22,473 nucleotides of DNA from a virus: the IMG/VR virus record IMGVR_UViG_3300037587_000149, positions 1-22,473 of that record; one strand, given 5' to 3'. The position numbers and the translations under genes were made by a program. This document shows, in pieces, positions 1 through 22,291 of this stretch (within the stretch, counting starts at the first letter, position 1; each line of letters begins with the position of its first letter). A model generated the notes under the pieces. That model did no database searches and was not told the origin of the DNA. It worked only from the letters and a program-made list of their open reading frames with translations.

Positions 1-649
1 CCATGTAAATGTATTCTAAATTGCTTTTCTCTGCGCCCGCAGCAAGGGTCAGCATAAACGAACCAGTGAACCCTGTGAGAGCTGTCAAAGATCCGCCCGT
101 AAATGTAATCGGCTTGCTGATAGTCAGTCCAGATGATAACCCATAATTTTTGCCTTCCAAGTATACTACTATAGGGTTTCCGCCTACGCCTGTACCAGAT
201 GCGTCAGAAAGAGCCTCTGCAGCAGTAATAGTAGCCTGTAGGGTCGCTTGATCGTCTGTTGTTCCATCCCCAGCAGAGCCGAAATCTGCCGGGTTTATAA
301 ATCTCTGTAATCTATTTTGTACTGTCCTATCTGTCGCACCTACACCCCCCTGATTATATGGGGTTGTACTCGCTGTTGTTTCAGCAACGGGATCGGCTTC
401 CCCGAAGCCTGTTTGCACTCCGTTCTTATCCTTAAGCTGTACCTTATACGTGCCCGAGATGAATATGTCAGGGAACACGCCGTCAGAGTCAGCGATTACC
501 GGATTCGAATTAGGAATAGTCCCTGCAGCGTCTGAGAATGTGTCTTTAGGCGTCGATGTGCCTGTAGAAAAGAAAAAAAGTTGAGAACCGTCAGATGGAC
601 TAATGCCATCTCCTGAGTCGAAGACCGGGGCAATAAATCGTGACGCCAT
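1..649 (-). CDS. Tailspike / receptor-binding protein, N-terminal part (runs off left edge)
   Basis: An open frame of 216 codons starts at ATG 649 and continues past position 1, so only the N-terminus is present. Residues about 20-90 (GSQLFFFSTGTSTP, NSNPVIADSDG, SGTYKVQLKD) resemble the virion-binding N-terminal domain of phage tail fibres and spikes. Residues 118-145 (INPADFGSAGDGTTDD) are the typical entry to a pectate-lyase-like right-handed beta-helix. The likely role is host-surface binding, possibly with glycan cleavage, as for P22 gp9; the catalytic part lies outside the window. An SD (GAGG, 7 nt spacing) supports the start. It follows the gp16-like ejection gene as the last late gene, but a plus-strand endonuclease gene now separates the two. 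The family call rests on motifs only. Confidence 0.8.
   Translation of the reverse strand, partial: MASRFIAPVFDSGDGISPSDGSQLFFFSTGTSTPKDTFSDAAGTIPNSNPVIADSDGVFPDIFISGTYKVQLKDKNGVQTGFGEADPVAETTASTTPYNQGGVGATDRTVQNRLQRFINPADFGSAGDGTTDDQATLQATITAAEALSDASGTGVGGNPIVVYLEGKNYGLSSGLTISKPITFTGGSLTALTGFTGSFMLTLAAGAEKSNLEYIYM
638..649. repeat. Left copy of a 12-bp imperfect direct repeat flanking the HNH gene
   Basis: TCGTGACGCCAT here and TCTTGACGCCAT at 1229-1240 agree at 11 of 12 positions. On the minus strand each copy encodes Met-Ala-Ser-Arg. This copy is the true tailspike start; the other is the orphan start at the end of the gp16-like gene. The pair brackets the HNH cassette. Confidence 0.6.
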
Positions 650-664
650 AACGAAACCTCATTT

Positions 665-693
665 ATGATATAATTGGTAACAGGGTGCGGCAA
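665..693 (-). promoter_or_regulatory. Weak sigma70-like promoter candidate for the tailspike
   Basis: On the minus strand TTGCCG (693-688) is followed after 17 bp by TATCAT (670-665), with 4/6 and 5/6 matches to consensus. The -10 overlaps that of the divergent HNH promoter. A caveat is that the predicted transcript would begin inside the tailspike SD, which argues against efficient use. Confidence 0.22.
669..674 (+). promoter_or_regulatory. Extended -10 promoter candidate for the HNH-AP2 gene
   Basis: A perfect TATAAT preceded by TGA gives an extended -10 (TGATATAAT, 666-674), 59 bp before the HNH start codon. No good -35 is present at 16-18 bp upstream. The same TGATATA core occurs at the late promoter near 21394 and before the capsid leader at 13268, both on the minus strand. 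Confidence 0.45.
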
Positions 694-700
694 ACACCCT
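682..700. other. Hairpin in the HNH-tailspike intergenic region
   Basis: AGGGTG and CACCCT form a perfect 6-bp stem with a 7-nt loop. There is no T-run on either side, so it does not look like a terminator. It would fall in the leader of an HNH transcript started near 681. Confidence 0.4.
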
Positions 701-733
701 ATCACCTAACAAAGACTTACTAAGGATAAGCCA

Positions 734-1234
734 ATGTCAAAGCCTATTATAACCCAAACCCGCCTCAAAGAAATTCTTAGCTATGATGCAGAGTCTGGAC
801 TGTTAACTTGGAAAACATCTACTTCTAATCGTGTCAAAGTTGGCGCAATAGCTGGCACTAAAATGAATACCGTATATATAGCCATCGGCATCGACGGGCC
901 GCAATATCTAGCGCATAGGCTGGCTTTCTTATACATCACAGGGGGCACCCCTTTCGAAGTTGATCATATAGACCATAACCCTTGCAATAACCGATTTACA
1001 AACCTGCGCCCTGTGTCTCATCAGCAGAACGGATGCAACCAAAGACTTAGGAAAACAAATACTAGCGGGTTTATGGGGGTCCGATGGGATACTCCGCGTA
1101 ACAAATGGCACGCATCTATAAGAGCCAACGGAAAGAAGATGTTCCTTGGTCGATTTGCCAGCTTTGAAGAGGCAAAAAAAGTAAGACTCGAAGCCGAGGC
1201 TAAATATGGATTCCACCAAAACCACGGCTCTTGA
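734..1234 (+). CDS. HNH homing-type endonuclease with AP2 DNA-binding domain
   Basis: This 166-aa protein has an HNH nuclease core at residues 75-100 (VDHIDHNPCNNRFTNLRPVS; His78 and Asn82 are candidate metal and catalytic residues). An AP2-type DNA-binding domain follows at about 111-147 (SGFMGVRWD, WHASIRANGKK, LGRFASFEEA). HNH-AP2 fusions are free-standing phage homing endonucleases that cut DNA and spread their own gene. It is the only convincing plus-strand gene in the window, with its own SD (AAGG) and extended -10. Its stop lies 5 bp from the stop of the convergent gp16-like gene. It lies between near-identical 12-bp repeats, suggesting recent insertion at a gene junction. The family call is firm; mobility is inferred. 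Confidence 0.9.
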   Translation: MSKPIITQTRLKEILSYDAESGLLTWKTSTSNRVKVGAIAGTKMNTVYIAIGIDGPQYLAHRLAFLYITGGTPFEVDHIDHNPCNNRFTNLRPVSHQQNGCNQRLRKTNTSGFMGVRWDTPRNKWHASIRANGKKMFLGRFASFEEAKKVRLEAEAKYGFHQNHGS

Positions 1235-1240
1235 CGCCAT
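1229..1240. repeat. Right copy of the 12-bp imperfect direct repeat flanking the HNH gene
   Basis: TCTTGACGCCAT matches 638-649 at 11 of 12 positions. It spans the last codons of the HNH gene and, on the minus strand, the orphan ATG that overlaps the gp16-like stop codon. Confidence 0.6.
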
Positions 1241-1253
1241 TATTGTTGCTCCT
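1238..1253 (-). promoter_or_regulatory. Orphan SD plus TAATG start, relic of the old tailspike junction
   Basis: On the minus strand AGGAG (1253-1249), an 8-nt spacer and ATG (1240-1238) form an ideal start signal whose A overlaps the gp16-like TAA stop. The frame begins Met-Ala-Ser-Arg like the tailspike, then runs antisense through the HNH gene for 103 codons with no recognisable content. It is best read as a stranded start site left by insertion. Confidence 0.6.
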
Positions 1254-3015
1254 GGGTTGTCTGTTGAGTCGCGCTTTCAATAGCTCCCGGTGCTGTTGTT
1301 ACCGCGGCTAATATCTTATTCCCTTGTGCAATCTCTGCTGCTTCTCGGAGTAGTGGATTTTTAGCCACTACTAAATTATCAAGCGCTATATCCGGCCTAG
1401 ACAACAATTCAGATAATTCGGCAGATGTTCTTAGTTTCTTTGGAGTTGCGTCAATATAGGCGCGCGCGATCCCTTCCGCATTGCTTCCTGCCCTAATTAC
1501 AGTATCTGCAAACTCTGCATTCTTCCGCGTAAGCTTCTGAGCCAGCTTTCTAGATACCTGCCCGATTACAGGAACGGCAACCGCGCCTATTGGTCCACCT
1601 ACAGCGGCACCAGCAGCAGAACCGGCCAACCCTCCTAGAATGTTTGTTGCATGGCCTTCTGTAAATCCTAACCGCCCTATAACCTTTGCGATGTTGCCTG
1701 TTGTCGTGCCTCTAACAACCTGCTGCATAGCCTCAATCTCTCCTTTCTTGAAGAACCGAGATTTTTTTTTGTTGTTCAATATGCTTCTGAATTGAGTGAC
1801 AAGGCCATTCTCAAAACCGCTTGCTTGGTTCTTGGCTTTCTCAAAGGATTCATTGATTAGTTCCGACCTCCTTGCACGACCCCATAACTCACGTGCAACT
1901 TTAAACTTCGGCGTTATCTCTGCCGCGGTCAATGTGCCTTTCTTGAATGCAGTTGGGCTAACTATATCTAGGAAGCTGTCGATATTGTCAACAATGATAC
2001 TGCCCAATGCCGCGTCTGCAGGCTCTAATGATTTAGCTGCGTTCTGCGCCACCTTGCGTAACGTGTCAACCTGAGTAAGTGTTGGCGCGGTACCTAATTC
2101 TGACTCAAGCCGCCTTAATACGCTGGCTGTCTTTGGAGTCAAATCTTCATCGAATCCTGACTTGCGGACAGCTTGATTGATACGATTTACCATGCCTTTG
2201 AAGGCTTTAGGCTGCAAAGACACTCCCGAATCATCTAACTCTTTATATACTCCACGGGATATATCCTTTATCTGCTCGATATCCGGAGCCGCAGAGACAA
2301 CTGCTTTCTTCACCTGCCTGCTATTTGACGCTGCTTTTAAATTCTCCGCGGTCTTTAACGACCCCTTCGCGCCAGCGACACCTATTAACTCAAGCAATAA
2401 GGTAGGTATTGTTGTTGCTGCCGCGGCTAGAACAGGGCTGCTTGTTGCCTTAAATGTCTCGTCGCCTAGGAATTTCTCAGAAGTCTGTAACACATCAGCT
2501 ACAGGCTGCAGCACTTCGCCTACAGCCTCTAACCCTCGCTGCCCTTCTTCTGACTGTGGTTTTACTGTAATAAATTCTCTAGTTGCTTCTACCGCCCTTG
2601 CTCCTGCGCCTGGTTCTGCAAAAGGGTTCACTGCTTGAGCAATGCCGGCAAGCCCCGCTATGGGCTCAGCAATTGCCCCTGTTGCTAATGTTACGGCTGG
2701 TTCAACAACGGACAACACGGAAGTTCCATCATCCGCTACTGGAGGTTGAAACCCTGCCGCTTGTGCTTGAGCAAGGATGTTAGGATCTATTTGTTGCTGA
2801 GTAGCGCTAGTGATATCAGGAGCAACACCACCAATATCTGTTGGCTGGACATCTGGCAACCTCTGCTGTGCTGTTTGTGTTGGCTGGGCAACTGGAGTGG
2901 CCTCCGCGGGAGTTGTAGGCTCACCAAAGAAAGTTCTGATCGACTGCCCGATTACCTCATCAGGGGTTCCATCAGGAAACTCAAACCTTTGCCCTTCAAC
3001 CTCAACTATAGGCAT
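1240..3015 (-). CDS. DNA ejection protein, P22 gp16-like
   Basis: This 591-aa protein (P22 gp16 is about 609 aa) is last in the ejection trio and is expected to leave the capsid with the genome and help it cross the cell envelope. Residues 1-31 carry the short N-terminal motif common in phage internal or ejection proteins (VEVEGQRFEFPDGTPDEVI). A Pro/Thr/Gln-rich linker follows (about 32-85). Several Ala/Gly-rich hydrophobic stretches could act in membranes: near 105-130, 195-220 and 455-485 (GGLAGSAAGAAVGGPIGAVA). The middle is helical. The start ATG overlaps the preceding stop (TAATG) behind GAGGG. Its own 3' end carries an SD and TAATG for a gene that has been displaced. Function is inferred from position, size and the N-terminal motif. 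Confidence 0.72.
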   Translation of the reverse strand: MPIVEVEGQRFEFPDGTPDEVIGQSIRTFFGEPTTPAEATPVAQPTQTAQQRLPDVQPTDIGGVAPDITSATQQQIDPNILAQAQAAGFQPPVADDGTSVLSVVEPAVTLATGAIAEPIAGLAGIAQAVNPFAEPGAGARAVEATREFITVKPQSEEGQRGLEAVGEVLQPVADVLQTSEKFLGDETFKATSSPVLAAAATTIPTLLLELIGVAGAKGSLKTAENLKAASNSRQVKKAVVSAAPDIEQIKDISRGVYKELDDSGVSLQPKAFKGMVNRINQAVRKSGFDEDLTPKTASVLRRLESELGTAPTLTQVDTLRKVAQNAAKSLEPADAALGSIIVDNIDSFLDIVSPTAFKKGTLTAAEITPKFKVARELWGRARRSELINESFEKAKNQASGFENGLVTQFRSILNNKKKSRFFKKGEIEAMQQVVRGTTTGNIAKVIGRLGFTEGHATNILGGLAGSAAGAAVGGPIGAVAVPVIGQVSRKLAQKLTRKNAEFADTVIRAGSNAEGIARAYIDATPKKLRTSAELSELLSRPDIALDNLVVAKNPLLREAAEIAQGNKILAAVTTAPGAIESATQQTTQEQQ

Positions 3016-4229
3016 TATTGAACCCTCTTGCCGCTACGATCAAACTGAATTACAGGCTGTTCTTCTTCCTGCTCTCTGCCGACCAATTGTGCCTTGCTAA
3101 CTCCGAACTGTTCGCCAATATCAATGATTTTATCGATTGCCTTCACATTGTCAGCGCTCGAGCGGTCGAATATCTTTTTAGCCTGATTCAAGAAGTCAGC
3201 ACGTTGAGTCACTCCTAACCGCTCGCCTGTCACAACTTTATTGAACTGGTTTCTGACCCGTTCAGGAACCCCCGCAGCATTGGCCGCTGTAGCAAATTCA
3301 GACTCACGAACCACAGAGCCGGGGTCCAGCATCTTCATAAAGTTGAAAATCAGAGCCAAATCACCAGCGGCGCTTGGGTCTTCGGACGATGCTTCAATGC
3401 GACCAAACGCCGAGTTGATCTTGTTAAACTCTGCGCTTGCTGTTGTGATCTCCGCGCGCAACTTCTTAGCCCTGTCGAATGAAGTATCTGAAGCTTTTAG
3501 ATCAGCTTTTAACTGCGCCTCAGTCTGCTCCTTCTGCTGGGCCTGCGGATCAACCCCAAGAATTTGTTTCAATGCGTTCTGAAAAGGGGGGGAGCCTTTA
3601 ACAAACCCGGCGCTAGTTAGTTGTTGCTCCACCAGCAATGGGTCAACCGGCTTGCGTTGCTGCTCAATGCTTTTCCCTGCTATCACCGCCAGCTCCTCAC
3701 GGCTAAACGCCTGAGCCTGTAACAATTTAGCTGCTTGAAGTCTCTGATCATCTGACATTGCAAGAAGCTGACGCGATTGGGAGGCATCACCACCTTCGGC
3801 CTCAACAGTTTTGATCTGTTGCTGTAAGAACTCGTCCTGCTGTTGTCTGTTGCCTGCTGCCAATTCTACGTTTAAGCCTAATTGAGCTGCCCTTAGAACT
3901 TTTGCTTCGTTGTCTAGCTTGAATTCAGCCCTTAGCTTCTTCACCACATCCGGCTGCGTGAATAGCAGATCCGCTATTTCAGCATTTATCTCACCCGCTG
4001 GAGCGCCTGCACGTTTACGCGCTAACAAGCCTTGTGCTTGCTGCTGAGCTGCTGCCGTCTGCTGGGCCTGTTGTTGAGCAAGGCCTTGCTCTTGCTGGGT
4101 ACCTTGAATGCCTAAGCGCTGCTGCTGAAGAATGTTCTCGCCCTGAGAAACCTGCTGCCCTTGCTGGATTCCGCCCAGCACATCAGGCGTTAAGCTTCGA
4201 CCGCTGAATTGTAATGGTGCTAATACCAT
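3015..4229 (-). CDS. DNA ejection protein, P22 gp20-like
   Basis: This 404-aa protein sits between the gp7-like and gp16-like genes, the position of P22 gene 20 (about 471 aa). It has a long Gln/Ala-rich region near residues 20-75 (QQGQQVSQGENILQQQR, AQQTAAAQQQAQ). Long charged helices follow, with a conserved-looking C-terminal part (SSEDPSAAGDLALIFNFMKM, LDPGSVVRESEF, about 280-345). Phrases like DPGSVVRESEF are common in phage internal virion proteins. It has no transmembrane segment. The expected role is as a minor virion protein ejected with the DNA. The start has a modest SD (GGGTGA) and lies 4 bp after the upstream stop; its stop overlaps the next ATG. The assignment rests on synteny and composition. 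Confidence 0.68.
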   Translation of the reverse strand: MVLAPLQFSGRSLTPDVLGGIQQGQQVSQGENILQQQRLGIQGTQQEQGLAQQQAQQTAAAQQQAQGLLARKRAGAPAGEINAEIADLLFTQPDVVKKLRAEFKLDNEAKVLRAAQLGLNVELAAGNRQQQDEFLQQQIKTVEAEGGDASQSRQLLAMSDDQRLQAAKLLQAQAFSREELAVIAGKSIEQQRKPVDPLLVEQQLTSAGFVKGSPPFQNALKQILGVDPQAQQKEQTEAQLKADLKASDTSFDRAKKLRAEITTASAEFNKINSAFGRIEASSEDPSAAGDLALIFNFMKMLDPGSVVRESEFATAANAAGVPERVRNQFNKVVTGERLGVTQRADFLNQAKKIFDRSSADNVKAIDKIIDIGEQFGVSKAQLVGREQEEEQPVIQFDRSGKRVQ

Positions 4230-20198: not shown

Positions 20199-20577
20199 CG
20201 CTCTTCTCCCCATTAAAGGCCATATTGAAAATTACGTCAGTATCAACCGCTACTTTCTTCACGTTAGCATCAAACCCGCCAGTGAAGTCAGTAAGAGCTT
20301 TCCAGGCTGCAACTCTAGCGCTCTGAGTGCATCCCTCGCCGTTGCTTGTAGCCTCAAGGAGCAATCCGGTAACGATGTCGTCAATAGTCACTAGCGCCTT
20401 CTTAGAAGCATTAGCTTTGAATGCGTCCACAGCCGATGAAATGTTATCTTTACTCATCAACCGAGAACCGGCCATTTCTGCGCTTCTTTCGCTATAGCCT
20501 GCAGTGATTGCGGCTTGGGTGGCGTTGAATCCATTGCAGCAATACGCTTCTACGAATGCTTGTTGTTTACTGTTCAT
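20191..20577 (-). CDS. Terminase small subunit
   Basis: I start at ATG 20577 (128 aa), since it overlaps the upstream stop as ATGA and the sequence then begins NSKQQAFVEAYCCNGFNATQ, the usual opening of small terminases. Residues 2-50 contain the conserved helix-turn-helix NATQAAITAGYSERSAEMAG for DNA (pac or cos) recognition. The C-terminal part (about 65-110) is helical and presumably oligomerises into a ring that docks TerL. Four small genes (34-, 63-, 78-aa and overlaps) separate it from the large subunit, which is more than usual. The packaging site may lie within or near this gene, as in P22, but none is visible. Confidence 0.85.
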   Translation of the reverse strand: MNSKQQAFVEAYCCNGFNATQAAITAGYSERSAEMAGSRLMSKDNISSAVDAFKANASKKALVTIDDIVTGLLLEATSNGEGCTQSARVAAWKALTDFTGGFDANVKKVAVDTDVIFNMAFNGEKSDD

Positions 20578-20894
20578 CTGCACCCCCCGTCTACCGAATC
20601 TATACAAGCTATGTAGTTGCCGTTCTGTTGCTCAACCTGAACTTTGTATAGCCCTTCCCCATCTACCTCTGGGAATCGACCCTCACAGTCAGCGAGGATC
20701 GGGTTAGGTAAGACTGAGATACAGCCCTTATGGGTAACGCATTTGGGATAGGTTGTCTCTATCTCGTAAAAGTACACCTTGCCGCACGATAGTAGCTCTC
20801 TTCGTGCTCTGAAGTAGCCAATGTCTCTACCTCTGTTTGTGAACTCTGATTCTTGATAGCTCTCTACCAAGTCTTTCAATATCTGTTTAATCAT
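20574..20894 (-). CDS. 106-aa protein, unknown
   Basis: This soluble protein begins IKQILKDLVESYQESEFTNR and continues with GYFRARRELLSCGKVYFYEI, then a Cys-containing beta-rich C-terminal half (YPKCVTHKGCISVLPNPILA, DCEGRFPEVDGEG). The start has SD GGGGA and the stop overlaps the small terminase ATG (ATGA). The cysteines are irregularly spaced, so a metal site is uncertain. Function is not recognised. Confidence 0.55.
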   Translation of the reverse strand: MIKQILKDLVESYQESEFTNRGRDIGYFRARRELLSCGKVYFYEIETTYPKCVTHKGCISVLPNPILADCEGRFPEVDGEGLYKVQVEQQNGNYIACIDSVDGGCR

Positions 20895-21856: not shown

Positions 21857-22291
21857 TCAGAAAGGGTTCTTTCCTTCCCCGTTCTTCTTATGCCATTGAC
21901 TATGACAGCCAGGGCATAGCCAGCGAACAATGAGTGGGAGCGCATAATCATCATGATGCCCATGCAATCGGCTAGGTTTTGACCCGCATTTCGAACAGTG
22001 ATCAGGCTTCTCCATTCTGCCCGCCTTTACTGCATTGCACACCATTGTCGATGCCATCCTTTTGAGAGGATTATTCTTCTCCCAGTCATCTCTATACTCC
22101 TTCGACTGCCTATTACCCCTCTCTCTGTCATAAGCCCGATAATAATCTAAGTTATCTTTTCTATTCTCCCTTACATCCTTCTTGTTACACCCCTTGCACT
22201 TATTGACATGACCATCTGCCATCTGTGGATGCTTATAAAAGCTGGAGAGCTTTTTAGACTCTCCGCACTTGAAACACTTCTTTGACTCCAT
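21857..22291 (-). CDS. HNH-type zinc-finger endonuclease
   Basis: This 144-aa protein has an N-terminal four-Cys zinc knuckle (CFKCGESKKLSSF at 6-9 and CKGC at 32-35). A basic helical spacer (RENRKDNLDYYRAYDRERGN) follows. A second Cys pair at 99-102 (CSKCG) and an HNH-like core come next: LHGHHDDYALPLIVRWLCPG, then CHSQWH (His112, His113, Asp114, Cys126, Cys129, His130, His134). Phage proteins of this shape are usually annotated as HNH endonucleases; they may be homing or packaging-related nucleases, though packaging HNH proteins normally adjoin terminase. The SD is GGGGAG. It is the first gene after the promoter at 22351-22324. Confidence 0.75.
   Translation of the reverse strand: MESKKCFKCGESKKLSSFYKHPQMADGHVNKCKGCNKKDVRENRKDNLDYYRAYDRERGNRQSKEYRDDWEKNNPLKRMASTMVCNAVKAGRMEKPDHCSKCGSKPSRLHGHHDDYALPLIVRWLCPGCHSQWHKKNGEGKNPF

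Follow-up and report, generated by a model that had tools for sequence, protein, structure and literature searches.

An apparent insertion scar of a free-standing HNH-AP2 endonuclease cassette at a gp16-tailspike junction

Free-standing endonucleases near essential phage genes

Free-standing phage endonucleases of the HNN/HNH-AP2 type (phrog_99), such as those of Xp10, Xop411 and OP1 and the T5-type HEGs (PMC2248197), together with the related IPA-HNH HEGs of ICP1 (PMC10448857), combine an HNH_3 with an AP2 domain and lie between genes, near essential structural genes, at locations that vary between related phages. HEGs are located at boundaries of genetic exchange (Barth et al., PMC10448857). 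The intronless homing endonucleases segG, segF and mobE of T4 likewise lie between essential genes, with effects on neighbouring promoters and translational coupling and with co-conversion of their flanks (PMC2988022). In addition to co-conversion, one-sided illegitimate DSB repair with microhomology junctions has been described in T4 (PMC2988022). The HNH nuclease family has thus been described before, as have its mobility close to essential genes and the routes of repair (PMC2248197, PMC2988022, PMC10448857).

The locus described here resembles both groups and lies in a viral stretch of 22,473 nucleotides, the whole of which was analysed and is called the window. In comparison to the described HNH-AP2 HEGs, its scar can be read to the base, with a cassette end directly after Asn-His-Gly, a stop borrowed from the target, two flanking target starts and an antisense orientation. 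A small literature search found no scar resolved to the base in which a start is duplicated and a stop borrowed. The T4 endonucleases belong to another nuclease subfamily and are nearly all co-oriented with their neighbours, segD being the sole antisense case; mobility has been proven for several of them (PMC2988022), and that of the cassette in the window is putative. The insertion is clearly the fossil of a known kind of event, and the locus appears to be a genuine and well-resolved scar, left by the insertion of a free-standing endonuclease of the homing type whose homing activity is putative. This trace of a selfish nuclease gene entering an essential operon is unusually readable, as the old start, the exact edge, the borrowed stop and the rebuilt start are all visible, and relatives provide the empty site.

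The gp16-tailspike junction and its two MASR starts

The junction carries the following features.

1240-3015, minus strand: gp16-like internal virion/ejection protein gene (ORF), 591 aa, ending QEQQ*; relatives in L001 (69%), L053 (62%) and L004 and L006 (48%)
1249-1253, minus strand: AGGAG, an SD that probably belonged to the ancestral tailspike start and now serves the orphan start; relatives read AGGAGCAACAATAATG (L022, identical) and AGGAGCAACAATAAATG (L010)
1229-1240, minus strand: orphan start ATGGCGTCAAGA (MASR), probable relic of the ancestral tailspike start (sequence, repeat counts); L015 reads ATGGCCTCAAGATTC, with the same AGA codon
929-1240, minus strand: orphan ORF of 103 aa, antisense to the HNH gene
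734-1234, plus strand: HNH_3-AP2 endonuclease gene, free-standing, intact, phrog_99, antisense to the late operon (ORF, Pfam, PHROG, alignment)
657-660, minus strand: GAGG, new SD of the present tailspike, 7 nt from its ATG (sequence)
638-649, minus strand: present tailspike start ATGGCGTCACGA, the second copy (sequence, 12-mer repeat counts)
2-649, minus strand, running off the window (<2): 5' part of the tailspike gene (ORF), 216 aa, with a pectate-lyase-like match beyond its N-terminal part

On the minus strand, the 3' end of the gp16-like gene reads ...CAGGAGCAACAATAATGGCGTCAAGAGCC, and its TAA stop (1242-1240) overlaps an ATG at 1240 to form TAATG. The AGGAG is embedded in the last gp16 codons, and the 8 nt that separate it from this ATG read CAACAATA (1248-1241). 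This arrangement is the one described in the original prediction, which also named nine other TAATG junctions; all are present, each with an SD-like stretch upstream. The tailspike at 649 opens ATGGCGTCACGATTT (MASRF), and ORF translations and a 12-mer comparison bear out the claim that the orphan frame begins in the same way, the two 12-mers lying 591 bp apart and differing in one base (11/12 identical). Only two of the 690 ATG 12-mers in the window encode MASR, namely the orphan start and the tailspike start. The tailspike start, itself aside, finds its best match among these 12-mers in the orphan (11/12), with the next at 10/12. The sequence ATGGCGTCANGA has four matches with at most one mismatch, a number reached in 0 of 100 shuffles, and it occurs exactly only at the two MASR starts.

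Viral contigs were scanned with the tailspike N-terminus, both alone and as an alignment, and with gp16. These scans yielded 13 gp16 loci and 19 relatives whose tailspike N-terminus is complete and at least 61% identical. In 15 of the 19 close tailspike relatives, the tailspike starts -11 to +13 nt from the upstream stop, and eight have the exact TAATG (distance -1; L014, L016, L018, L019, L022, L026, L027 and L029). Other distances are 0 (L010), 2 (L015 and L025), -4 (L021), -11 (L020), 12 (L028) and 13 nt (L017), and the longer ones are 34 (L013), 46 (L012), 153 (L011) and 1203 nt (L024). One close tailspike relative without HNH reads ATAATGGCGTCACGT at the empty site. The junction of L018 reads AGAATAATGGCGTCACGT (longer stretch, AGAATAATGGCGTCACGTTTT), that of L022 is identical to the window, that of L010 reads AGGAGCAACAATAAATGGCCTCTCGT, and that of L015 reads AGGAGCAGTAATAATGGCCTCAAGATTC. 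Empty sites leading from gp16 through TAATGGCGTCA into the tailspike, as had been predicted, are therefore found in L018 and L022. The junction is also tight in most gp16 homologues, with TAATG in L053 and L060, TAAATG in L001 and ATGA overlaps in L054 and L064; in L004, L006, L053 and L060, gp16 directly abuts the next structural gene. When the flanks in the window were joined by script, the junction matched L015 and L018 at 25 of 31 positions each, whereas the present leader gives 18 and 20 matches. With L001, nucleotide homology (70% over 1.2 kb) extends from 2469 as far as 1236, where it breaks off inside the orphan start.

Comparison with these relatives shows the ancestral state, the junction usual in this phage group, AGGAG...TAATG with an overlapped tailspike ATG, in line with the earlier proposal that the tailspike once started at 1240. 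Given the tight gp16/tailspike junctions of the relatives, the SD inside the last gp16 codons would be the ancestral SD of the tailspike. The present gap of about 590 bp was seen in no relative lacking HNH. Translational coupling from gp16 would now run into a dead-end antisense frame, and the tailspike would depend on the new GAGG, about 590 nt downstream of the gp16 end and orphan start. The case thereby shows how a late structural gene can survive the loss of translational coupling.

Among the relatives compared, no two near-identical phages differ in the presence of the cassette. The tailspike of the best gp16 relative (69%) is a different one, and in the records whose gp16 homologue comes with a MASR tailspike (L004 and L006), gp16 is 48% identical. 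Phage records gave no DNA match to the window, and no further viral contig holds the exact pattern AGGAGCARCAATAATGGC-MASR.

Several relatives hold other genes at this position. In L024 (1297-2500), the junction holds a different HNH-AP2 gene, antisense and encoding a 366-aa double HNH-AP2 protein, with a promoter-like TTTACG-18-TATAAT pointing to the tailspike and no convincing orphan start. Read by eye, the junctions of L032 (2297-2500) and L034 (2298-2500) apparently hold short antisense ORFs for small hydrophobic proteins, with their own leader. Because of the HNH-AP2 gene in L024 and the apparent antisense small genes in L032 and L034, the gp16-tailspike junction appears to be a hotspot of exchange. 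In L013 (2464-2503), an 11-codon mini-ORF links gp16 and tailspike through TAATG overlaps at both ends, forming a translation relay.

The HNH-AP2 gene, its leader and the cassette edges

The plus-strand HNH gene had been placed between the two MASR starts, and it is found there. It encodes a protein of 166 aa, with the following features at its ends.

1226-1228, plus strand: last family-conserved codon, Gly of Asn-His-Gly, inferred 3' cassette edge (alignment A3; variable tails after NHG in relatives)
722-726, plus strand: AAGGA, SD of the HNH gene (sequence)
676-706, no strand assigned: leader hairpin with 12-bp arms, folding better as minus-strand RNA (folding); conserved in L077/L152, L154 and L158
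666-674, plus strand: extended -10-like TGATATAAT, candidate HNH promoter and 5' cassette edge (sequence); TGGTATAAT in relatives

The HNH_3 domain (PF13392) is matched with E 9e-13 and 48.1 bits, against a cut-off of 24.8, and its His/Asn positions H78, N86 and N90 are invariant in alignment A3 of six HNH-AP2 proteins. The AP2 match (PF00847; E 1.8e-5) scores 25.4 bits, under the curated Pfam cut-off of 33.3, while phrog_99 matches residues 1-165 with E 2e-69. Between 500 and 1400 of the window, there is no group I/II intron match and nothing in Rfam above the curated threshold. The gene is not within an intron or intein, as the gp16 and tailspike frames are both intact at its sides.

In the six aligned proteins, the C-terminus is conserved through Asn-His-Gly and divergent beyond, and the tails of H-x-N-H-G type proteins in 80 further loci are variable. 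In the window, the last base of NHG is 1228, and the start repeat (1229-1240) adjoins it without gap or overlap. The 3' cassette edge would accordingly be placed at 1228/1229, which refines the proposal that the cassette entered after the first tailspike codons. Ser166 (TCT) and the stop (TGA) of the HNH gene are the antisense of AGA and TCA in the old start. Since the conserved HNH end directly adjoins the start repeat, the gene takes its last codon and stop from the strand opposite the old tailspike start. A target-derived tail in another gene is seen in L152, where the HNH tail AKQVSTQ* is the antisense of the 3' end of an intact upstream gene.

The whole 84-nt leader folds with -27.8 kcal/mol (z -4.3) as minus-strand and -11.8 (z -0.3) as plus-strand RNA, and a 36-nt stretch of it has z -4.2 and -1.3, respectively. 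This strand asymmetry, with better folding antisense to HNH, is also present in L077/L152. The window leader is homologous to the leader of an antisense HNH gene that stands among other genes in L077/L152 (score 39, with 26 as the highest of 1000 shuffles), as well as to the HNH leaders in L154 and L158. In these relatives, the homology reaches the equivalent of TGGTATAAT and then diverges, placing the likely 5' cassette edge near 665. The conserved leader of this HNH subfamily thus consists of an extended -10-like TGNTATAAT, the hairpin and the SD (window 650-733, L152:7152-7234, L154:5613-5690 and L158:1691-1776), and the cassette is antisense and head-to-head with the neighbouring gene in L152, L158 and the window. 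In L158, a phage-like contig filed under a Flavobacteriales MAG, the same HNH cassette lies antisense just before a likely homologue of the window gene at 3015-4229, and apparent last codons of the preceding gene (MEKQ*) remain beyond its far side.

In three phage or viral records (L050:5917-5982, L110:2916-2980 and L129:2922-2988), HNH-AP2 genes are directly preceded by Rfam int-alpA RNA, which suggests that structured leaders are a common part of HNH-AP2 cassettes; the window leader does not match int-alpA RNA. A leader match to L013 (AATTATATCA) was rejected as unproven, its p of 0.013 being that of one of 23 tests. A minus-strand tailspike promoter, TTGCCG-17-TATCAT (693-665, 9/12), was also dropped, since four such sites in comparison to 1.9 in shuffles are no better than chance.

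Origin of the second tailspike start

A parallel case exists in a sister phage (the L007 record), whose gp14 is 96% identical to that of the window. There, an HNH-AP2 gene of the same family (45%; L065:1501-2220) has inserted in sense orientation in a 73-aa gene after the portal gene, for which window 15537-15316 is the empty site, and the target start again stands on both sides of the cassette. The HNH frame opens on the start codon of the 73-aa gene and takes over its first nine codons, ATGTTACTAACCAAAGCGGATCTACAG, which match the window at 25 of 27 positions and encode MLLTKADLQ, the window-type allele. After the HNH stop, the target gene restarts with ATGACGTTAACGAAAGAAGATTTACAG (MTLTKEDLQ), and the body that follows hardly differs from the L069 allele and does not resemble that of the window. 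With a window-type copy upstream and an L069-type body downstream, the two target starts appear to be different alleles; part of the LTKADLQ match could be convergent, as the family's own HNH N-terminus is similar. The two insertions differ in what is taken from the target, namely the start codon and SD in L065 and the antisense, for a stop, in the window. Furthermore, the allele switches across the HNH gene in L065, whereas in the window a single base (AGA/CGA) bears on co-conversion.

It is very likely that an HNH-AP2 cassette inserted at the old gp16/tailspike TAATG junction, orphaning the old start. The comparisons above show an insertion at a former TAATG junction, a start that has been orphaned and a stop taken from the target. 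In the ancestor, gp16 would have ended AGGAG...TAATG, and the ATG in this overlap would have been the start of the tailspike. The mobile cassette, made up of the HNH-AP2 gene and its promoter-hairpin-SD leader, would have entered antisense, four codons into the tailspike, with its edge at 1228/1229. The severed four codons would persist as the orphan start, their antisense giving the last codon and stop of HNH, and translation of the tailspike would now begin at a second MASR start, which has an SD of its own. Recombination may have copied HNH together with the donor's tailspike start into the recipient, joining at or near the recipient's own start through short homology. Because the flanking starts in L065 appear to be two alleles, the AGA and CGA copies can by analogy be read as recipient and donor alleles and not as a fresh duplication. 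The second start most likely came with the cassette from a donor phage, as this one base and the L065 analogy suggest. Of the earlier claim that the first codons were duplicated or recreated with a new SD, the second MASR start with its GAGG stands, but a donor allele is more probable than a start made afresh. Among the relatives, no donor with the same leader beside the same tailspike was found, and the 16 nt (650-665) between the cassette edge and the tailspike start are unaccounted for in the insertion model. The HNH-less site expected under this model would read AGGAGCAACAATAATGGCGTCA(A/C)GATTT.

A different driver is possible, with clearly lower probability, if the incoming tailspike module already had a divergent HNH gene upstream and was joined at the shared MASR start, HNH being a passenger. 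The tailspike is indeed mosaic, as L003 shares 90% identity over window 1-360 and has another N-terminus, gp15 and gp16 are likewise mosaic relative to L007, and the junction is a likely hotspot. However, the HNH leader is found again among unrelated genes (L152 and L158), which argues that the cassette moves on its own. Physically, this passive exchange overlaps with the insertion favoured above and differs only in the driver. The nuclease may have driven the event or been a passenger on a tailspike swap, and homing by active cleavage is putative. A local origin of both starts is rather unlikely. Repair of a staggered or gapped cut would here have copied about 12 bp within the same phage, with one copy mutated later (C/A), and the repeat, 11/12 identical, does abut the cassette edge exactly at 1229. 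The other copy, however, lies 16 nt from the promoter-like cassette end, unlike a target-site duplication, and the flanking copies in L065 are clearly different alleles. A literal 12-bp target-site duplication was dropped as the leading model, since a gap remains between the second copy and the other cassette edge. Small HNH enzymes are not known to produce 12-nt staggers, which also counts against local duplication.

It is improbable that the cassette separated two starts of an ancestral relay, in which a short MASR frame with a stop preceded the tailspike start. The flanks joined at 1229/665 do read ATGGCGTCAAGATAA, followed by the present SD and start, and L013 has its mini-ORF relay, but tandem MASR starts occur in none of the relatives compared. 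Least credible by far is an orphan frame that is a real gene or begins at a chance ATG. It has a good SD and 103 open codons, but its product, whose conservation would have spoken against the original prediction, is without match in Pfam, PHROG or the relatives' loci, and open antisense frames of this or greater length, codon on codon, also occur in some other HNH genes (L077, L098 and L073). Its first 12 bases are also those of the tailspike start in all but one position, and they stand where the tailspike starts in relatives. The orphan ORF is probably not a functional gene.

Together with L065, the insertion at the old TAATG junction suggests a pattern in which cassettes arrive with a donor copy of the target start. 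Tentatively, and with well under even confidence, HNH-AP2 cassettes of this family may repeatedly enter coupled stop/start junctions, each bringing or leaving a second target start, so that the nuclease takes its stop or start from the old copy and the essential gene restarts from the new one ('start-swap'). If true, selfish genes would recurrently come to be tolerated, and their deletion made difficult, by this route.

Elsewhere in the window, a 106-aa ORF (20574-20894, minus strand) has a weak match (E 0.0056) to phrog_26190, the family to which the tailspike N-terminal part also belongs, and may be a copy of that domain that has been displaced or has degenerated. A second nuclease gene, endonuclease-VII-like (phrog_2340), lies at 21857-22291 on the minus strand.
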